A DNA stretch of 64,000 nucleotides from an uncultured Clostridiaceae bacterium (lineage in GTDB: Bacteria; Bacillota; Clostridia; Clostridiales; Clostridiaceae): assembly GCA_946405135.1 (NCBI GenBank), contig CAMJGD010000005.1:62001-126000 (forward strand), in the 5' to 3' direction. Position numbers and translations under genes: made by a program. The notes beneath the pieces are model-generated. The model did not search any database and had not been told where the DNA came from. It saw nothing but the letters and a program-made list of their open reading frames with translations. Positions 3,874 to 52,694 of this stretch are shown here, piece by piece (within the stretch, counting starts at the first letter, position 1; the number at the start of each line of letters is the position of its first letter).

Positions 3874-3902
3874 TTGAATATTTTGATAAATAATGTTAAT
3901 CT
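3874..3902 (+). promoter_or_regulatory. Candidate sigma-A promoter for the cobalamin-riboswitch operon
   Basis: TTGAAT (3874-3879), a 17-base spacer and TAATCT (3897-3902), ending about 25 bases before the riboswitch P1 arm. Fair match; sequence-only call. Confidence 0.5.
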
Positions 3903-3924
3903 ATAAATGAAATAAAATTAAATA

Positions 3925-4080
3925 ACATGGATTATATGAGGGAATGCGGTTAGAATCCGCAGCAGCCCCCGCTACTGTAGGCATGGACAAATGATTGTTA
4001 ATCCACTCAATGAAAACAAAGCATTGGGGAAGGTGATCAGGAGGAAGAAGTGCAAGCCAGGATATCTTATATAATCTTAT
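3925..4080 (+). promoter_or_regulatory. Cobalamin (B12) riboswitch aptamer
   Basis: The core GAATGCGGTTAGAATCCGC followed by AGCAGCCCCCGCTACTGT, and the B12 box GCAAGCCAGGAT, are the hallmark conserved blocks of cobalamin aptamers. P1 is visible as GATTATATGAG (3930-3940) pairing with CTTATATAATC (4066-4076). It sits upstream of the ECF transporter operon and is expected to switch it off when adenosyl- or other cobalamin binds. Ligand class is inferred from the consensus. Confidence 0.95.
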
Positions 4081-4137
4081 GGAAAGTGGACTACCTTCGG
4101 AGGGAAGGTGAGGGTTTGCATTAATTTTGAATCTTTA

Positions 4138-4161
4138 CCGGACCTTTAGGTTCGGTTTTTT
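4138..4161 (+). terminator. Intrinsic terminator, likely riboswitch expression platform
   Basis: CCGGACC-TTTA-GGTTCGG followed by six T (4156-4161). Located about 60 bases after the aptamer and 100 bases before the first transporter gene. Upstream, TGCAAGCC in the B12 box (4051-4058) can pair with GGTTTGCA (4113-4120), offering an alternative fold. Confidence 0.8.
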
Positions 4162-4204
4162 GTTTAAGTGAGACTCCAAACTTTATATTTGGTCAGTCGA
4201 ACTT

Positions 4205-4240
4205 ACACCTACGTAATGAAATGGAGTAGGTGTTTCATTT
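4205..4240 (+). terminator. Second leader hairpin before the ECF operon
   Basis: ACACCTAC (4205-4212) pairs with GTAGGTGT (4226-4233), followed by TTCATTT. The T tract is interrupted, so this may be a weak terminator or a translation-control element 20 bases ahead of the ribosome binding site. Confidence 0.45.
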
Positions 4241-4259
4241 ATGTAAAAGGTGAGGTTTT

Positions 4260-5132
4260 ATGGATAGAAATGATGATTTTCATGTGCTTAGTGCAGTAAC
4301 TATTAATATTGCTTTTATGATAATAGCTTTTTTAAATGATAATCCATCCATTATTTTATCTGCATTAGTTTGGTCATTATCTTTGCTTTGGGTTTATGGA
4401 GAAAAGCAGAAGATAAAAAAAGGCTTCATTTATTTTATACCAATTGCTATGGTAACAGCAATTATTAACATTATTTTTGTGAACTCTGGCAGTCACCAGT
4501 TGTTTACTATATTTAATAAGCAAGTTACACTAGAATCTATAGTTTATTCAATAATAATGTGTTTGAAGATACTTATTATAATATATGTTTTTATGGGTTT
4601 TAGCTCTATGTTAGATTCAGATAAAGCTGTTTCATACTTTTCTTCAAAAATGCCAAAATCAACTCTTACCATGCTTATAACCTTCAAACTTATTCCTAAT
4701 ATGAAAAATAGGGTAAAAGATTTAGAGGATATATATAGTTTAAGAGGAGTTGACTACCAATCTAAAGGCCTAAAATCTAAAATAAAGAGTCGTATTCCGG
4801 TATTATCTATACTTTTAGAAGACTCTTTAGAAAGCTCTTTTCATATTGCAGAAGCAGCTTATGTAAAAGGGTTTTTAAGCGGAAAAAGGAGCATATATGA
4901 CGAGCAGAAACTTAAAATTAAGGATGTTTTTATCATTATATATTCTATAGGAATTATAGTTTTATTTAGTATATTTAAAAATAAAGGTTTCATGAATTTT
5001 GAGATATATGATTCTTTAAATTTAAAGTATATATTTTCAAATCAATCTATGATTATTTGTGGTCTTATGCTGTTTATCACATTGTTTATATGCCTTTACA
5101 TTATTTTTACTAATTTTAGGAAGGATAAATAA
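4260..5132 (+). CDS. ecfT: ECF transporter T component (CbiQ/EcfT family transmembrane protein)
   Basis: 290 aa, ATG preceded by AAAGGTGAGG. Hydrophobic helices lie near residues 10-70, 85-115, 220-240 and 265-285. Cytoplasmic coupling elements typical of EcfT are visible: SLRGVDY and, about 40 residues later, AAYVKGF, which correspond to the two Ala-Arg-Gly-like motifs contacting the ATPases. It is the scaffold linking the S component to the ATPases. It begins an operon controlled by the B12 riboswitch and ends two bases before the ATPase gene. Dedicated rather than shared use is inferred from the complete T-A-A-S set. Confidence 0.88.
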   Translation: MDRNDDFHVLSAVTINIAFMIIAFLNDNPSIILSALVWSLSLLWVYGEKQKIKKGFIYFIPIAMVTAIINIIFVNSGSHQLFTIFNKQVTLESIVYSIIMCLKILIIIYVFMGFSSMLDSDKAVSYFSSKMPKSTLTMLITFKLIPNMKNRVKDLEDIYSLRGVDYQSKGLKSKIKSRIPVLSILLEDSLESSFHIAEAAYVKGFLSGKRSIYDEQKLKIKDVFIIIYSIGIIVLFSIFKNKGFMNFEIYDSLNLKYIFSNQSMIICGLMLFITLFICLYIIFTNFRKDK

Positions 5133-5133
5133 T

Positions 5134-6813
5134 ATGGCTTATATAGAAATTTCAAATCTTAATTACAGCTATCCTTGTGAAGAAATTCAAGCGCTTAAAG
5201 ATATAAATATGCAGGTAGAAAAGGGAGAAATAATACTTATAGTAGGTAAGTCAGGTTCTGGAAAGTCTACCTTAGGAAGGTGCATATCTTCATCTATACC
5301 CAATTTCTATGGAGGCACTATAGGTGGAGAAGTAAGAATAAATGGGAAAAATATTAAAGAGTTATCTAGATATGAAATGGCTAAAGAAGTGACTATGGTT
5401 TTTCAAGATCCTGAAAAGCAGCTCATGATGAATAAAGTTCATAGAGAGATAGCTTTTGGACTAGAAAATGTAGGTGTAAATTCAGAAGAAATAAAGAGAA
5501 GAGTTTGGGAAGCACTACAATTTTCTAATATATTAGATATCGCTTATAGAGATATAAGTTCTTTGTCAGGTGGACAAAAGCAAAAGGTAGCAATAGCTTC
5601 TGCCATAGCTTTTATGCCTAACTGCATAATAATGGATGAACCTTTGTCGCAGCTGGATCCAGCTTCTGCAGAAGAGGTAATGGCATTTGTAAAAAAAATA
5701 AATGAAGAGTTAGGTATTACTATAATAATTATTGAACAGAGAATAGAAAAATGGTTTGATCTGGCAGAAAAAATAGCAGTCATGGATAAGGGCAGCATGC
5801 TTTTTTATGGAACAAAGGAAGAAATATATAGAGAAAAATCTATTGATTTTATACCCATGTATTTAAAAGTAATAAGAGACTTAAATATAGAGAGTTGTCC
5901 TAAGAACATAAAAGAAGCAAGAAATATTATAAATTCTAAATTTAAAACTGAAGATATTTATGAAAAAAACTGCAAAGAAAAAAAATCCTCTGAAAAAAAC
6001 TTTATAAAAAGCATATTTACTAAAGAAAAAGAAGAGAATACAGCTTTAAAGCTGCAAGGAGTAGGTTTTAATTATGGACACATAGAAGCTTTAAAAGATT
6101 TAAATTTATCTATAAATAAAGGAGAATTTTGCTGCATTTTAGGACCCAATGGTGCGGGAAAGAGCACTCTGCTAAAGAGTATAATGAAACTTTTGGATTT
6201 TAATGGAAACATAAAGTGCTTTAATAAAGATTTAAGCAAGATGAATAGGCTAGATATAGGGAAAAGTATTGCTTATGTATCACAAAATCCTAATGATTAT
6301 ATTTCAAAAGAAACGGTGCATAAGGAGTTAAAATTTACATTGGATAACTATAATATAAAGGAGTTAAAGGTCATTGATGATGTTTTACAGGAACTAGGTA
6401 TACTTCATTTAAAACATAAAAATCCAAGGGATATAAGCGGAGGAGAAAGACAAAGGGTAGCTATAGCTTCTATGCTTGTATTAAATCCAGACATGATATT
6501 GCTAGATGAACCTACTAGAGGATTAGACGGAGAAAACAAAAAAAGATTGGGGGATACTCTTTTAAAAATAAATAAAAAGGGATGTACCATAATCCTTGTA
6601 ACTCATGATGTAGACTTTGCAGCAGAATATGCAGAAAGGTTTATACTCATGTTTGATGGAAGTATAGTAGCTGATGGAAATAGAAAAGAAATATTCAGCA
6701 GGGGAATATACTATAACACTGTTATCCATAAACTTTTTAAAGATGTGAATAAAAACATATATACTTTTAAGGATTTTAAATCCATTTTAAAAGTATATGA
6801 GGAGAGAATTTAA
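5134..6813 (+). CDS. ECF transporter ATPase with two fused ABC domains (EcfA-EcfA')
   Basis: 559 aa. The ATG at 5134 follows AGGAAGG; the longer frame from 5059 would overlap the T gene by 74 bases and lacks a site. First nucleotide-binding domain about residues 1-235: Walker A GKSGSGKST (about 38), signature LSGGQKQK, Walker B CIIMDEP. A charged Lys/Glu linker follows (about 265-300). Second domain about 300-530: Walker A GPNGAGKST, signature ISGGERQR, Walker B MILLDEP. Most Firmicutes encode the two ECF ATPases as separate genes, so the fusion is notable. It powers import through the T and S partners. The stop overlaps the next start (TAATG). Confidence 0.93.
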   Translation: MAYIEISNLNYSYPCEEIQALKDINMQVEKGEIILIVGKSGSGKSTLGRCISSSIPNFYGGTIGGEVRINGKNIKELSRYEMAKEVTMVFQDPEKQLMMNKVHREIAFGLENVGVNSEEIKRRVWEALQFSNILDIAYRDISSLSGGQKQKVAIASAIAFMPNCIIMDEPLSQLDPASAEEVMAFVKKINEELGITIIIIEQRIEKWFDLAEKIAVMDKGSMLFYGTKEEIYREKSIDFIPMYLKVIRDLNIESCPKNIKEARNIINSKFKTEDIYEKNCKEKKSSEKNFIKSIFTKEKEENTALKLQGVGFNYGHIEALKDLNLSINKGEFCCILGPNGAGKSTLLKSIMKLLDFNGNIKCFNKDLSKMNRLDIGKSIAYVSQNPNDYISKETVHKELKFTLDNYNIKELKVIDDVLQELGILHLKHKNPRDISGGERQRVAIASMLVLNPDMILLDEPTRGLDGENKKRLGDTLLKINKKGCTIILVTHDVDFAAEYAERFILMFDGSIVADGNRKEIFSRGIYYNTVIHKLFKDVNKNIYTFKDFKSILKVYEERI

Positions 6814-7499
6814 TGAAAAAACTGTATACAACTCTTTCTGCAGCTGCCATAATTTTACTCATATTAATAAATTTTAGAACTAAAGAGTATCATAAATTAT
6901 CTTTAATTATTACTTTAGGCGTATTTTTTATATTGCTTATGAGTTATTTGTACTTTGAAAAAAATGAAATGGGAACAAAAGAAATAGCTTTAATTGCTAC
7001 TTTAAGTGCCTTTGCTGCAGTAAGCAGAGTGCCTTTTGCAGCAATACCTAATGTGCAGCCTACTACATTTCTTGTAGCACTTTCAGGATATGTTTTTGGG
7101 AGCTATGAAGGGTTTCTTGTAGGTTCTACAGCTGCTTTTGTATCTAATATTTTTTTAGGTCAAGGTCCTTGGACTCCATGGCAGATGTTTGCCTGGGGGA
7201 TAGTGGGAGCAATCTCAGGACTTTTAGGAAAAAATGAAAAAAAGATGACTGTGGAAGCTTTTTCTATGGTATGTTTTCTATATGGATTTTTATTTGACTG
7301 GATAATGAATATTTGGCATGTACTAGGTTTTGTTCATCCTCTAAATATAAAAACTATAATGCTAGCATATCTTACAGGATTAAGTTTTGACATAATGCAT
7401 GCCCTTGGAAATTTTTTGTTTTCCATAGTGTTTTATGAAAATTTTTATAAGGTTCTTAAGCGGTTTAAATATAGGTTAAAAATCACCTATATAAAATAG
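6813..7499 (+). CDS. ECF transporter substrate-binding S component, predicted cobalamin-specific
   Basis: 228 aa, translationally coupled to the ATPase gene through TAATG. About six to seven hydrophobic helices fill the whole protein. The block ALSGYVFGSYEGFLVGSTAA and then GQGPWTPWQMFAWG are typical of an ECF S-component subfamily found with B12 riboswitches (CbrT-like). Specificity for cobalamin is inferred from the riboswitch and from the transcobalamin-like proteins encoded downstream, not from the S component alone. The C-terminus is basic and cytoplasmic. Confidence 0.85.
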   Translation: MKKLYTTLSAAAIILLILINFRTKEYHKLSLIITLGVFFILLMSYLYFEKNEMGTKEIALIATLSAFAAVSRVPFAAIPNVQPTTFLVALSGYVFGSYEGFLVGSTAAFVSNIFLGQGPWTPWQMFAWGIVGAISGLLGKNEKKMTVEAFSMVCFLYGFLFDWIMNIWHVLGFVHPLNIKTIMLAYLTGLSFDIMHALGNFLFSIVFYENFYKVLKRFKYRLKITYIK

Positions 7500-7514
7500 A
7501 TGGGAGGAATATAT

Positions 7515-9389
7515 ATGAATAAAAATAAAAAAATATTAAGAAAGGCCTGGCTTATAATTTTTGCTTTGTTCTTTTCCATAATGCAAAGCGGAGCATTGAT
7601 TAATGTAAAAGCAGATACTTTATTAAAAGAAGTTTACGTAAGAGTTGAAAGTCTTGAGGGTACCATAGCTGAAGGACCTCAACAGGCTTCTAATGGTTTT
7701 GAAGCTTTGGATAAGCTTTTAAAAGAGAAAAATATAAAAATGGAAGCTAAAGATGGTGAATGGGGCAAATATATAGAATCCATTGGAGACTTAAAAGCAG
7801 GCAAATTTGGTGGATGGGATGGATGGATGTACTATGTAAAAAATGGCAGTACCATTGAAAGTGGCCAAACTTCTATATACCAATATAATACAAAAGATGG
7901 AGATAACTTAGTTGTATATTATGGAAACTTTGATACTCCTATTGTAAATTCTATAAGCTTTCAGCCTGAAATTGTAAAGGAAAATGAAGGCTTTAAAATG
8001 AACTTTAGTTATAGTACTTTTGATTATACTGAAAATAAAGCGGTAGTGTTACCTATAAAAAATGCTAAAGTTTCCATAGATAAAAAAGATTATGTAACTG
8101 ATGCACAAGGAAATATAGAAATCAAACAAGGACTTTTCAAAGGAGAACACAGCTATAAAGTTAGCGGATATAATAAAGATAGTATTCCAACAGTTATAAT
8201 GGACAAAGGTTTATTCACTATAGACAATGTGAATAAACCGGTTTTACAGCATAGTGATAAAAAATTTAATGATAAAGATAATTCAAAGATAGAAAAAAAT
8301 ATAAACAAGGAATTAGATACCACATTGAATTTTATGAAGAATAATTCTTCTAATCCTTGGGCTGCAATTTCTTTAAGCAAGCTTTCAATAAAAGCAGATG
8401 AAAAGTTTATAAAATCTTGGGCAGAGCAGATTAAAAAGGAAGGTATAAAAGAGTTATCGCCTTCAGAACTTGAAACTAGAATCATGTCATTAACTGCTAT
8501 GGGATATACGCCTTATAATTTTCAAGGACAAGATCTAGTTAAAGAACTTTTTAATAGAAACATAGAGGACTTTTATAATAATGAGATAGTATTTGCATTA
8601 TTTTCTTATGATTATGCTAAAGTTAAAGAAAATTATAATATAACAGAAGATAAACTTATAAATTCTTTATTAGACAGCAAGTTAGTTAATAAGAATGGTG
8701 ACAAGAATTTAGTAGGCTGGACATGGTTTGGAGATAAAATAGATCCAGATATGACAGGTGCAGTTATAAATGCATTAGCTCCTTATTATAATGGTAAGCA
8801 GGTAAAAGGTGTTGATAACAATAAATTAAAAGCTGCAGTAGATGAAGCTTTAAATACCCTTTCTTATATGCAAAATGAAAGTGGTGATATAGTAGGACAA
8901 TATGGACCATCCTGTGAAACTAATGCCTTTATAATATTAGGATTAACATCTCTAGGAGTTGATCCAGAGGGAAGCAAATTTACAAAAAACAAAGGCGACT
9001 TGGTTTCAGCATTACTATCCTACAAAGGAGATAATGGACAATTTAACCACAATTCAGAAGCAAAGAATAATTATTTAGCTACGGAACAAGCTTTTAGAGC
9101 ATTAATATGCTTAAAGGAATATAAAGAAAAAGGAACTTATGATTATTATTCAAGCACTATAGATATCAGTTCATTAAAGGCTTATAAGCTTCCAGAAGAG
9201 ACTAAAAAGCCAAGTAATGAAGAAAAACCAAAACAGGAAATTGAAATGAAACAAAAAGAAAATTTAAAAAATCAAGATAAAAAAGGAAATTTACCAAAGA
9301 CAGGATCTCCTATAGGCTTTGATTTTATGATAGCTTTATCCATAGCTTTAATGTCTGCAGGAGTAATATTAAATAAGAAAAGTAATTAG
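7515..9389 (+). CDS. Sortase-anchored surface protein with transcobalamin-like DUF4430 domain and alpha/alpha-toroid domain
   Basis: 624 aa from the ATG at 7515, which follows GGGAGGA; the ATG at 7500 precedes that site. Order: signal peptide (about 1-33, cleavage near VKA-D); DUF4430 domain (about 35-135, with GGWDGWMYYVKNG and the closing GDNLVVYYG), the fold of the transcobalamin/intrinsic-factor beta domain; an Ig-like beta region (about 140-240); a helical-repeat region (about 260-545) with DPDMTGAVINAL and CETNAFIILGLTSLG, resembling the squalene-cyclase/transcobalamin alpha6-alpha6 barrel; a Lys/Glu linker; and LPKTG (593-597), a hydrophobic helix and basic tail for sortase anchoring. 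Its place after a B12 riboswitch and ECF importer suggests cobalamin capture at the cell wall. The domain calls are mine by eye; ligand binding is inferred. Confidence 0.85.
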   Translation: MNKNKKILRKAWLIIFALFFSIMQSGALINVKADTLLKEVYVRVESLEGTIAEGPQQASNGFEALDKLLKEKNIKMEAKDGEWGKYIESIGDLKAGKFGGWDGWMYYVKNGSTIESGQTSIYQYNTKDGDNLVVYYGNFDTPIVNSISFQPEIVKENEGFKMNFSYSTFDYTENKAVVLPIKNAKVSIDKKDYVTDAQGNIEIKQGLFKGEHSYKVSGYNKDSIPTVIMDKGLFTIDNVNKPVLQHSDKKFNDKDNSKIEKNINKELDTTLNFMKNNSSNPWAAISLSKLSIKADEKFIKSWAEQIKKEGIKELSPSELETRIMSLTAMGYTPYNFQGQDLVKELFNRNIEDFYNNEIVFALFSYDYAKVKENYNITEDKLINSLLDSKLVNKNGDKNLVGWTWFGDKIDPDMTGAVINALAPYYNGKQVKGVDNNKLKAAVDEALNTLSYMQNESGDIVGQYGPSCETNAFIILGLTSLGVDPEGSKFTKNKGDLVSALLSYKGDNGQFNHNSEAKNNYLATEQAFRALICLKEYKEKGTYDYYSSTIDISSLKAYKLPEETKKPSNEEKPKQEIEMKQKENLKNQDKKGNLPKTGSPIGFDFMIALSIALMSAGVILNKKSN

Positions 9390-9403
9390 AAAAGGTGATC
9401 TAA

Positions 9404-10111
9404 TTGAAAAAAAGATTAACCCTTGTAATATCAGTAATAGTAGTATGTATTGCAGCACTATTTCTCACTAAAACTGTTCAGCAAAAATATATCTATGCAG
9501 CTGAAACAAAAGAGAATATAAAAAATGAAAAAAGCATAAATGAAGAAAGTACTAAAAAAGATACAGCTGGTGAGGAAAAAAATAAAGAGCAAAATGTTAC
9601 AACTGAAGTAAAAAAAGAAGAAAAAAAGATACAAGAGAATTCTGATAAAAGCAAAGAAAAAATAAAAAATAGTGAAGAAACTAAAAAGCCTTCAAAATCA
9701 AAAGAAAATAAGTCATCTTCAAGCAGCAAAGTTAGTAACAGCAAAGAAACCCCTAAATCAGAAGCTCCAGAAAAAAAGCCTTCTAATCCACCAGAAAAAA
9801 AAGAGGAAATAAACTTTATAGTAGTTAATACTATAAATAATGATACAATAGTCAGTGCAAGTTATGATATTGAAGGCAAGACTGTAGAAGAAGTAACAGT
9901 AAGTATATTAAATTCTAAAGGAATAGATTTTAAGCTACGGGCAGGTTATTTTTCTAGTATTGCAGGACTTAAAGAAAGATCTAAAGGTAAGGCAAGTGGA
10001 TGGTGTTATTATGTTAATGGGAACAAGCCTGGAGTAGGGGCAGGATCCTATTACCTTAAAAAAGGAGATAAGGTGCAGTGGAAGTTTTTAGAAGATGGCA
10101 TAAATAACTAA
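9404..10111 (+). CDS. Secreted or membrane-tethered DUF4430 (transcobalamin beta-domain-like) protein
   Basis: 235 aa, TTG start 9 bases after AAAGGTGA, 14 bases after the previous gene. An N-terminal hydrophobic segment (about 5-25) is either a signal peptide or a membrane anchor; no lipobox and no LPxTG are seen. Residues about 30-130 are a low-complexity Lys/Glu/Ser/Pro tether. Residues about 133-235 form a DUF4430 domain with GKASGWCYYVNG and YYLKKGDKVQWKF, the same strand pattern as in the preceding protein. It has no helical domain, so it may pair with the alpha-type region of its neighbour. Cobalamin binding is inferred from context. Confidence 0.8.
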   Translation: MKKRLTLVISVIVVCIAALFLTKTVQQKYIYAAETKENIKNEKSINEESTKKDTAGEEKNKEQNVTTEVKKEEKKIQENSDKSKEKIKNSEETKKPSKSKENKSSSSSKVSNSKETPKSEAPEKKPSNPPEKKEEINFIVVNTINNDTIVSASYDIEGKTVEEVTVSILNSKGIDFKLRAGYFSSIAGLKERSKGKASGWCYYVNGNKPGVGAGSYYLKKGDKVQWKFLEDGINN

Positions 10112-34458: not shown

Positions 34459-34468
34459 ATAAAAATAC

Positions 34469-34570
34469 CTTTAAATTGATCCTGTGAGATCGCTAAGGAA
34501 GCTATAATTTTTATACATGGTATAACTATATGTGTATATCTATGCCTTCCTTTAAAGGAAGGCATTTTTT
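34469..34570 (+). promoter_or_regulatory. PyrR-type pyrimidine attenuator
   Basis: PyrR-binding hairpin at 34469-34499: lower stem CCTT/AAGG, upper stem GATC/GATC, loop CTGTGA, plus the internal GCT bulge. This fits the PyrR RNA motif (UGUGAG-like loop, AAGG on the 3' side). Terminator: TGCCTTCCTTT/AAAGGAAGGCA (34543-34564) followed by six T. AAGGAAG (34496-34502) overlaps the hairpin's 3' side and can pair with CTTCCTT (34547-34553) to form the antiterminator. High UMP would favour PyrR binding and termination. pyrR itself is not in the window. Confidence 0.82.
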
Positions 34571-34616
34571 AATACCTTTAATTTTAACACAGAGAGGTTA
34601 AAAAGGAGTGATGTAT

Positions 34617-52399: not shown

Positions 52400-52694
52400 A
52401 ATGAACAATAAAAAACTTTGATAGGAAGAGTACTTATAAGATGTAGTCTTAGCGAGTAGGTGATAGTGAAAGGCCTATACGAAGCTTATAATGAAGAACA
52501 TCCTGGAGTTTTCAACCGAAATCTTTTTAGAGAGTAGTCTTGAACGGAGCCTAACCGTTATGCATAGGACAGTATCGAAATTTACTTGTTATTTCCGTAC
52601 TGATATAAGATGGACTTATTTATTTAAGTCAATTTAGGTGGTACCGCGGAAGTTATGCCTTTCGTCCTAGTTTTTTAGGATGAAAGGCTTTTTT
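52400..52694 (+). promoter_or_regulatory. T-box riboswitch, asparagine specifier
   Basis: The T-box sequence TTAGGTGGTACCGCGGA (around 52635-52650) is canonical. Stem I carries GCGAGTAGGTGATAGTGAAAGGCC and a specifier-region GAAGAACATCC, in which AAC (52497-52499) is the expected Asn codon. The terminator is GCCTTTCGTCCTA with TAGGATGAAAGGC then TTTTTT (52657-52694). Uncharged tRNA-Asn should stabilise the antiterminator and turn on asnA. The specifier call rests on position and on the identity of the downstream gene; I did not fold the RNA. Confidence 0.93.

Follow-up and report, generated by a model that had tools for sequence, protein, structure and literature searches.

A riboswitch-controlled operon of a Clostridiaceae bacterium that probably joins a CbrT-type corrinoid importer to transcobalamin-like surface proteins

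A cobalamin transporter of the energy-coupling factor (ECF) type, CbrTUV, was reportedly predicted by Rodionov in 2009. For ECF-CbrT of Lactobacillus delbrueckii, transport of cobalamin and cobinamide has been shown experimentally (PMC5997447, PDB code: 6FNP). In Bacteroides, the surface protein BtuG, a seven-bladed beta-propeller lipoprotein that works with an outer-membrane TonB channel, is reported only from Bacteroidetes (PMC6143338), and in many bacteria BtuFCD performs the membrane import step for B12. The assignment of B12 transporters is a named open problem (PMC6593275). Here, an operon from an uncultured Clostridiaceae bacterium is compared with these systems and with the vertebrate B12 carriers transcobalamin (TC), intrinsic factor (IF), and haptocorrin (HC). 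It lies in a stretch of 64,000 nucleotides (contig CAMJGD010000005.1), the whole of which is called the window. We consider it probable that this is a riboswitch-controlled corrinoid salvage operon, composed of a CbrT-type importer and of TC-type wall and tethered capture proteins. The features are listed below with their coordinates in the window.

3904..4087, plus strand: class I cobalamin riboswitch aptamer (RF00174; cmscan 86 bits against a cut-off of 31.5, E 8.5e-20, model positions 1-189 of 189)
4137..4156, plus strand: intrinsic terminator, the likely expression platform, a stem-loop followed by TTTTTGTTTA (terminator scan)
4260..5132, plus strand: ECF transmembrane T component, CbiQ family and CbrV-like (PF02361 41 bits, cut-off 25)
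5134..6813, plus strand: fused double ECF ATPase in one chain, CbrU-like (PF00005 in two stretches; TIGR04520 397 bits, cut-off 315)
6813..7499, plus strand: ECF S component of the CbrT type (phmmer and profile matches to PDB chain 6fnp_A)
7500..9389, plus strand: wall-anchored two-domain protein of 629 residues (Pfam, own hidden Markov models, AlphaFold2 model, Foldseek)
9404..10111, plus strand: membrane-tethered or exported DUF4430 protein of 235 residues (PF14478 60.2 bits; lipoprotein homologues in several related operons)

The arrangement of a riboswitch and five genes, all on the plus strand and separated by gaps of at most 15 bases or overlapping by one base, is confirmed. The terminator sits 5' of the first gene, and judging from the leader sequence the operon is probably under B12 control, that is, repressed by the vitamin; the CCCCC loop of the aptamer may have its kissing-loop partner in a hairpin with the loop CGGAGGG at about 4090-4110. 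The likely start of the 629-residue protein is at 7515, after GGAGG. An earlier note on this DNA had described a complete cobalamin aptamer followed, in one direction, by an ECF T component, fused ATPases, an S component, and two exported proteins with DUF4430 domains; the full-length RF00174 match and the Pfam and TIGR matches bear this out, with DUF4430 scores of 25.9 bits for the 629-residue and 60.2 bits for the 235-residue protein (cut-off 23.8). That description was right as far as it went; the LPKTG motif and the alpha/alpha-toroid domain of the 629-residue protein were missing from it.

This protein is composed of a signal peptide, a DUF4430 (beta) domain at residues 56-147, a beta-rich middle part, an alpha/alpha-toroid (alpha domain) at residues 257-559, and the LPKTG sortase motif, which forms its C-terminus. 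The 235-residue protein has a long linker rich in lysine, glutamate, and serine, and a beta domain at residues 151-235. When the AlphaFold2 (AF2) model of the 629-residue protein (predicted local distance difference test, pLDDT, 84.9) was searched with Foldseek, the first-ranked match was the beta domain of human TC (PDB code: 5no0; E 2.6e-4, template-modelling score 0.77 of the target), the second was RUMGNA_00854 of Ruminococcus gnavus (PDB code: 3U7Z), and full-length TC and HC were listed too; the fold that the earlier note had ascribed to DUF4430 is thus the one recovered. RUMGNA_00854, a solved bacterial match to the beta domain, is deposited as a putative metal-binding protein under an entry title without a B12 function. 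A sequence-only search of the PDB with the wall protein gave no match, and its relatives there emerged only with profiles and predicted folds. According to AF2, Foldseek, and hhalign, an alpha6-alpha6 toroid and a DUF4430 beta domain are present within one window protein, and it is because the alpha domain is there besides the beta domain that the comparison with TC is strong. For a relative with the domain order of the vertebrate carriers, alpha then beta (L071; AF2 pLDDT 90.4), Foldseek ranks 1-15 among 350,542 PDB chains were all TC, HC, or IF, with E-values of 2e-12 to 9e-11 over 365-446 columns; terpene cyclases came next at about 5e-6. The same order is found in L057, L058, L060, L066, L070, and L080.

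The sequences of TC and IF were checked against PDB chains and then aligned, and a profile of the bacterial alpha-beta set was compared with the carriers by hhalign, whose E-values here refer to a single pair. The two-domain profile matched TC, IF, and HC over 338 columns with a probability of 96.9, while the single domains gave 79.7 (alpha) and 94.6 (beta). Only two residues of the alpha domain, Asp161 and Gln274 in window-domain numbering, are invariant in all 35 of the bacterial sequences, and they align with D176 and Q273 of TC (D153 and Q252 of IF), which are invariant in the vertebrate carriers. D176, N224, and Q273 of TC are residues that we take to be corrinoid contacts, as described in the crystal papers on IF and TC.

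The bacterial proteins differ from the vertebrate carriers in being anchored to the wall or the membrane, and their two domains often stand in reverse order or are split between chains. The anchors across the relatives include LPxTG motifs, lipoboxes, S-layer homology (SLH) domains, and transmembrane segments, and this variety places the domains outside the membrane, where the earlier note had located the DUF4430 proteins. Separately expressed alpha and beta domains of TC assemble on cobalamin, and the beta domain alone binds cobalamin and cobinamide (PMC5599065); therefore, split and single-domain versions are plausible. Very large surface proteins of about 2,000-2,500 residues with toroid and/or DUF4430 domains were also observed (L049, L053, L056, and L063).

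With regard to the importer, a phmmer search of all PDB chains with the S component gave 6fnp_A (ECF-CbrT) as the sole good relative (E 1.6e-13), and with the family profile the same chain was matched at E 5.4e-25 and the second-best chain at 5e-4. The S component is therefore nearer to CbrT, of the vitamin-type ECF transporters, than to any other solved S component, and T and two ATPase domains are encoded with it. Since CbrT, a demonstrated transporter, is its one good relative in the PDB, the importer appears best placed with the known CbrTUV system, here with T and ATPase genes of its own. The window operon differs from the L. delbrueckii-type cluster, nrdJ-cbrS-cbrT-pduO, in that the dedicated T component and fused ATPases stand in one riboswitch operon and in that large wall-anchored alpha/beta proteins are added. 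Overall, the importer type was already known, and the TC-like capture layer, judged by the open literature searched, appears to be new.

The CbrT paper names cbrS once, without analysing it (PMC5997447). Loci in lactobacilli were found by a CbrT search of genome contigs, and in four of them a DUF4430 gene directly precedes cbrT: the order is nrdJ-DUF4430-cbrT-pduO in L089, L090, and L091, and DUF4430-cbrT in L093. From this order, the cbrS gene of the cluster that yielded the characterised CbrT is read as coding for a DUF4430 protein, a point of likeness to the window operon. The contig of L089 is labelled Faecalicatena absiana, and its CbrT is 98% identical to that of L. delbrueckii; the sequence is probably a contamination. 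L. delbrueckii DSM 20074 retains only a remnant, and two Ligilactobacillus genomes have a second DUF4430 lipoprotein after nrdJ and pduO. The lactobacilli thus link DUF4430 to B12 independently and in the absence of the alpha domain.

In the class Clostridia, DUF4430 is present in 74 of 148 genomes. The earlier note had proposed a genome search for DUF4430 genes behind B12 riboswitches, and it was carried out in 32 DUF4430-bearing Clostridia genomes, about one per family: RF00174 stands shortly upstream of 30 of 50 DUF4430 loci, compared with 0.46 expected by random placement (the binomial test of this linkage treats loci as independent), and 50 of the 77 listed domains follow it on the same strand at a distance of up to 13 kb. 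Since about 30 families of the class have this operon, the locus is far from a chance arrangement. In 43 loci that were read out, the recurring kit consists of T, the fused ATPase, S, a small DUF4430 lipoprotein or tethered protein, and at least one toroid domain, often fused to DUF4430. The alpha domain occurs in 60 of the 148 genomes, and 85 of its 95 strong matches have DUF4430 no more than 6 kb away. No riboswitch of another class was found in the nine operon-bearing loci examined; one weak case turned out to be an AdoCbl-II riboswitch (RF01689; L071:1244-1316), which precedes an alpha-beta SLH protein. The idea that unlinked DUF4430 loci are under other riboswitch classes was unsupported, with none in eleven such loci, several of which represent this operon again, in some cases truncated by the end of the contig. 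A minimal operon of a B12 riboswitch, a DUF4430 protein, and a short S component was also observed (L075:1212-2483 and L076:1-1191); this S component is weakly CbrT-like, and neither a T component nor an ATPase is encoded beside it.

In the host genome RF00174 was matched seven times and DUF4430 five times; the five DUF4430 matches are all found in three operons behind B12 riboswitches, and a T-ATPase-S set belongs to each of these operons. Separate genes of one sister operon (L013) encode the alpha domain (853 residues, wall-anchored), a DUF4430 lipoprotein, a DUF4430 wall protein, and a sortase. Sortase genes inside or adjoining the B12 operon (L013:11074-11817; also near the L066 and L079 operons) are fitting for LPxTG-anchored capture proteins. 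In the third B12 operon (L014, in G000:C2), an LPKTG protein of 889 residues is encoded by the first gene (L014:10339-13008) and replaces the alpha protein. It looks like a pyrroloquinoline quinone-type beta-propeller by eye; identity as a BtuG-like propeller is without sequence support, and no solved relative was found by sequence. The remaining riboswitches precede cob/cbi biosynthesis genes, CbiM, and two YitT-family membrane proteins. The latter (YitT/DUF2179) stand directly behind strong class I cobalamin riboswitches (L017:1532-2775 in G000:C7 and L018:1559-2778 in G000:C19), and a corrinoid-related transport role is possible for them. Since most genes of the anaerobic B12 pathway are present, the host is likely a corrinoid producer that also salvages. 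The window also contains a T-box leader (52409-52672) and a PyrR binding site (34464-34572).

The system of Bacteroides resembles this one in that a surface protein encoded in a B12-riboswitch locus feeds an importer and in that several paralogous loci exist per genome. As a counterpart to BtuG/BtuB, the term used in the earlier note, the operon therefore stands by analogy in surface B12 capture, but the BtuG fold is not shared: no homology of the window proteins to BtuG was found, and their predicted fold is a beta domain and a toroid. The statement that BtuFCD is not needed holds for the operon, which does not contain it; however, the genome encodes one BtuF-type protein (PF01497), located elsewhere and not near a B12 riboswitch, so that redundancy is possible. 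In the open-access literature (subscription papers and preprints were outside the search), no report of bacterial TC-like proteins was found, and DUF4430 has passing mentions, never with bacterial B12 uptake. The SEED annotation includes the role 'additional lipoprotein component of predicted cobalamin ECF transporter', and the lipoprotein may thus have been noted by annotators.

A proposed mechanism can be described as follows. When cellular adenosylcobalamin falls, the operon would be transcribed. The wall protein would hold a corrinoid sandwiched between the alpha and the beta domain, in the manner of TC and IF, and the tethered DUF4430 protein, on its flexible linker, may relay this ligand to the CbrT-like S component or into its vicinity. 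The S component would take up the corrinoid, and the T-ATPase module would power import. Because the host probably also makes its own corrinoids, B12, cobinamide, or other cobamides would be salvaged through the operon. That the surface proteins bind corrinoids and deliver them to the ECF complex is what we infer here, and for many Clostridia we lean towards the view that anchored two-domain relatives of IF and TC capture corrinoids and hand them on to an ECF complex of the CbrT type.

Several observations weigh against this proposal. At the third motif position (TC N224, IF D204), 21 of the 35 bacterial sequences have Asn, and the window protein has Ser; no Cys is conserved in the bacterial alpha alignment, compared with C98, C147, C187, and C249 in the carriers, and the cobalt-binding His173 of TC is not conserved in it either. 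The window protein has the order beta then alpha, the reverse of TC, and since its domain order and cysteines differ from theirs, it is not filed as a member of the vertebrate carrier family. The Foldseek rmsd (root-mean-square deviation) of about 21 A across both domains, L071 against the carriers, indicates that domain orientation is not reproduced; the differing placement of the two domains might be expected of an apo model. The DUF4430 profile alone matches TC weakly, at E 0.14, and the alpha profile favours squalene-hopene cyclases (E 3e-23). No RF00174 was detected for 20 of the 50 DUF4430 loci, several of them at contig ends, and the host probably produces corrinoids itself.

Among other explanations, the cyclase match would suit a toroid that is an extracellular enzyme of terpene-cyclase or glycosidase fold with DUF4430 merely as a module, and GH105 enzymes are in the Foldseek list. 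However, in place of the DxDD motif of class II cyclases the toroid has DPDMT/DPDIT, and an enzyme fits poorly with the surface location, the B12 riboswitch, and the constant pairing with DUF4430 and CbrT-type ECF genes, so that we regard this as very improbable. Corrinoid was named as the substrate in the earlier note, and the sequence evidence favours it: the B12 riboswitch, an S component closest to CbrT, the linkage to B12 riboswitches, and nrdJ, pduO, and cbrT in lactobacilli. Import of a corrinoid precursor or part (cobalt, lower-ligand base, alpha-ribazole, or an incomplete corrinoid) instead of complete corrinoids would be in keeping with a host that encodes most of the B12 pathway and with a T component of the CbiQ family; yet CbrT carries cobalamin and cobinamide (PMC5997447), the toroid and beta domain form a corrinoid-sized sandwich in TC, and cobalt was set aside as substrate since CbiM has a riboswitch-controlled locus of its own. 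This is improbable, although less so than an enzyme. Somewhat less unlikely, but still doubtful, is that the ECF complex imports corrinoid and that the DUF4430 and toroid proteins act otherwise under B12 control, in binding of host or community proteins, adhesion, or processing or protection of cobamides. Giant relatives made up of many domains, with Ig-like repeats and SLH anchors, do look like adhesins, but both domains together bring only B12 carriers to the top of the PDB, and in lactobacilli the minimal form is a DUF4430 lipoprotein, encoded beside cbrT, that is too small for a typical adhesin.

Corrinoid capture at the surface and import by a CbrT-type complex would offer a testable answer to how Gram-positive gut bacteria, which have no outer membrane, catch scarce corrinoids, and a likely function for DUF4430 in Clostridia and Lactobacillaceae. 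If true, extracytoplasmic binding proteins would serve ECF transporters, for which the membrane S component has been described as the part that binds substrate, and the vertebrate B12 carriers would have bacterial kin. This bears on the origin of IF and TC, which may have descended from bacterial proteins or may represent a domain pair assembled twice, and on the competition for B12 in the gut.

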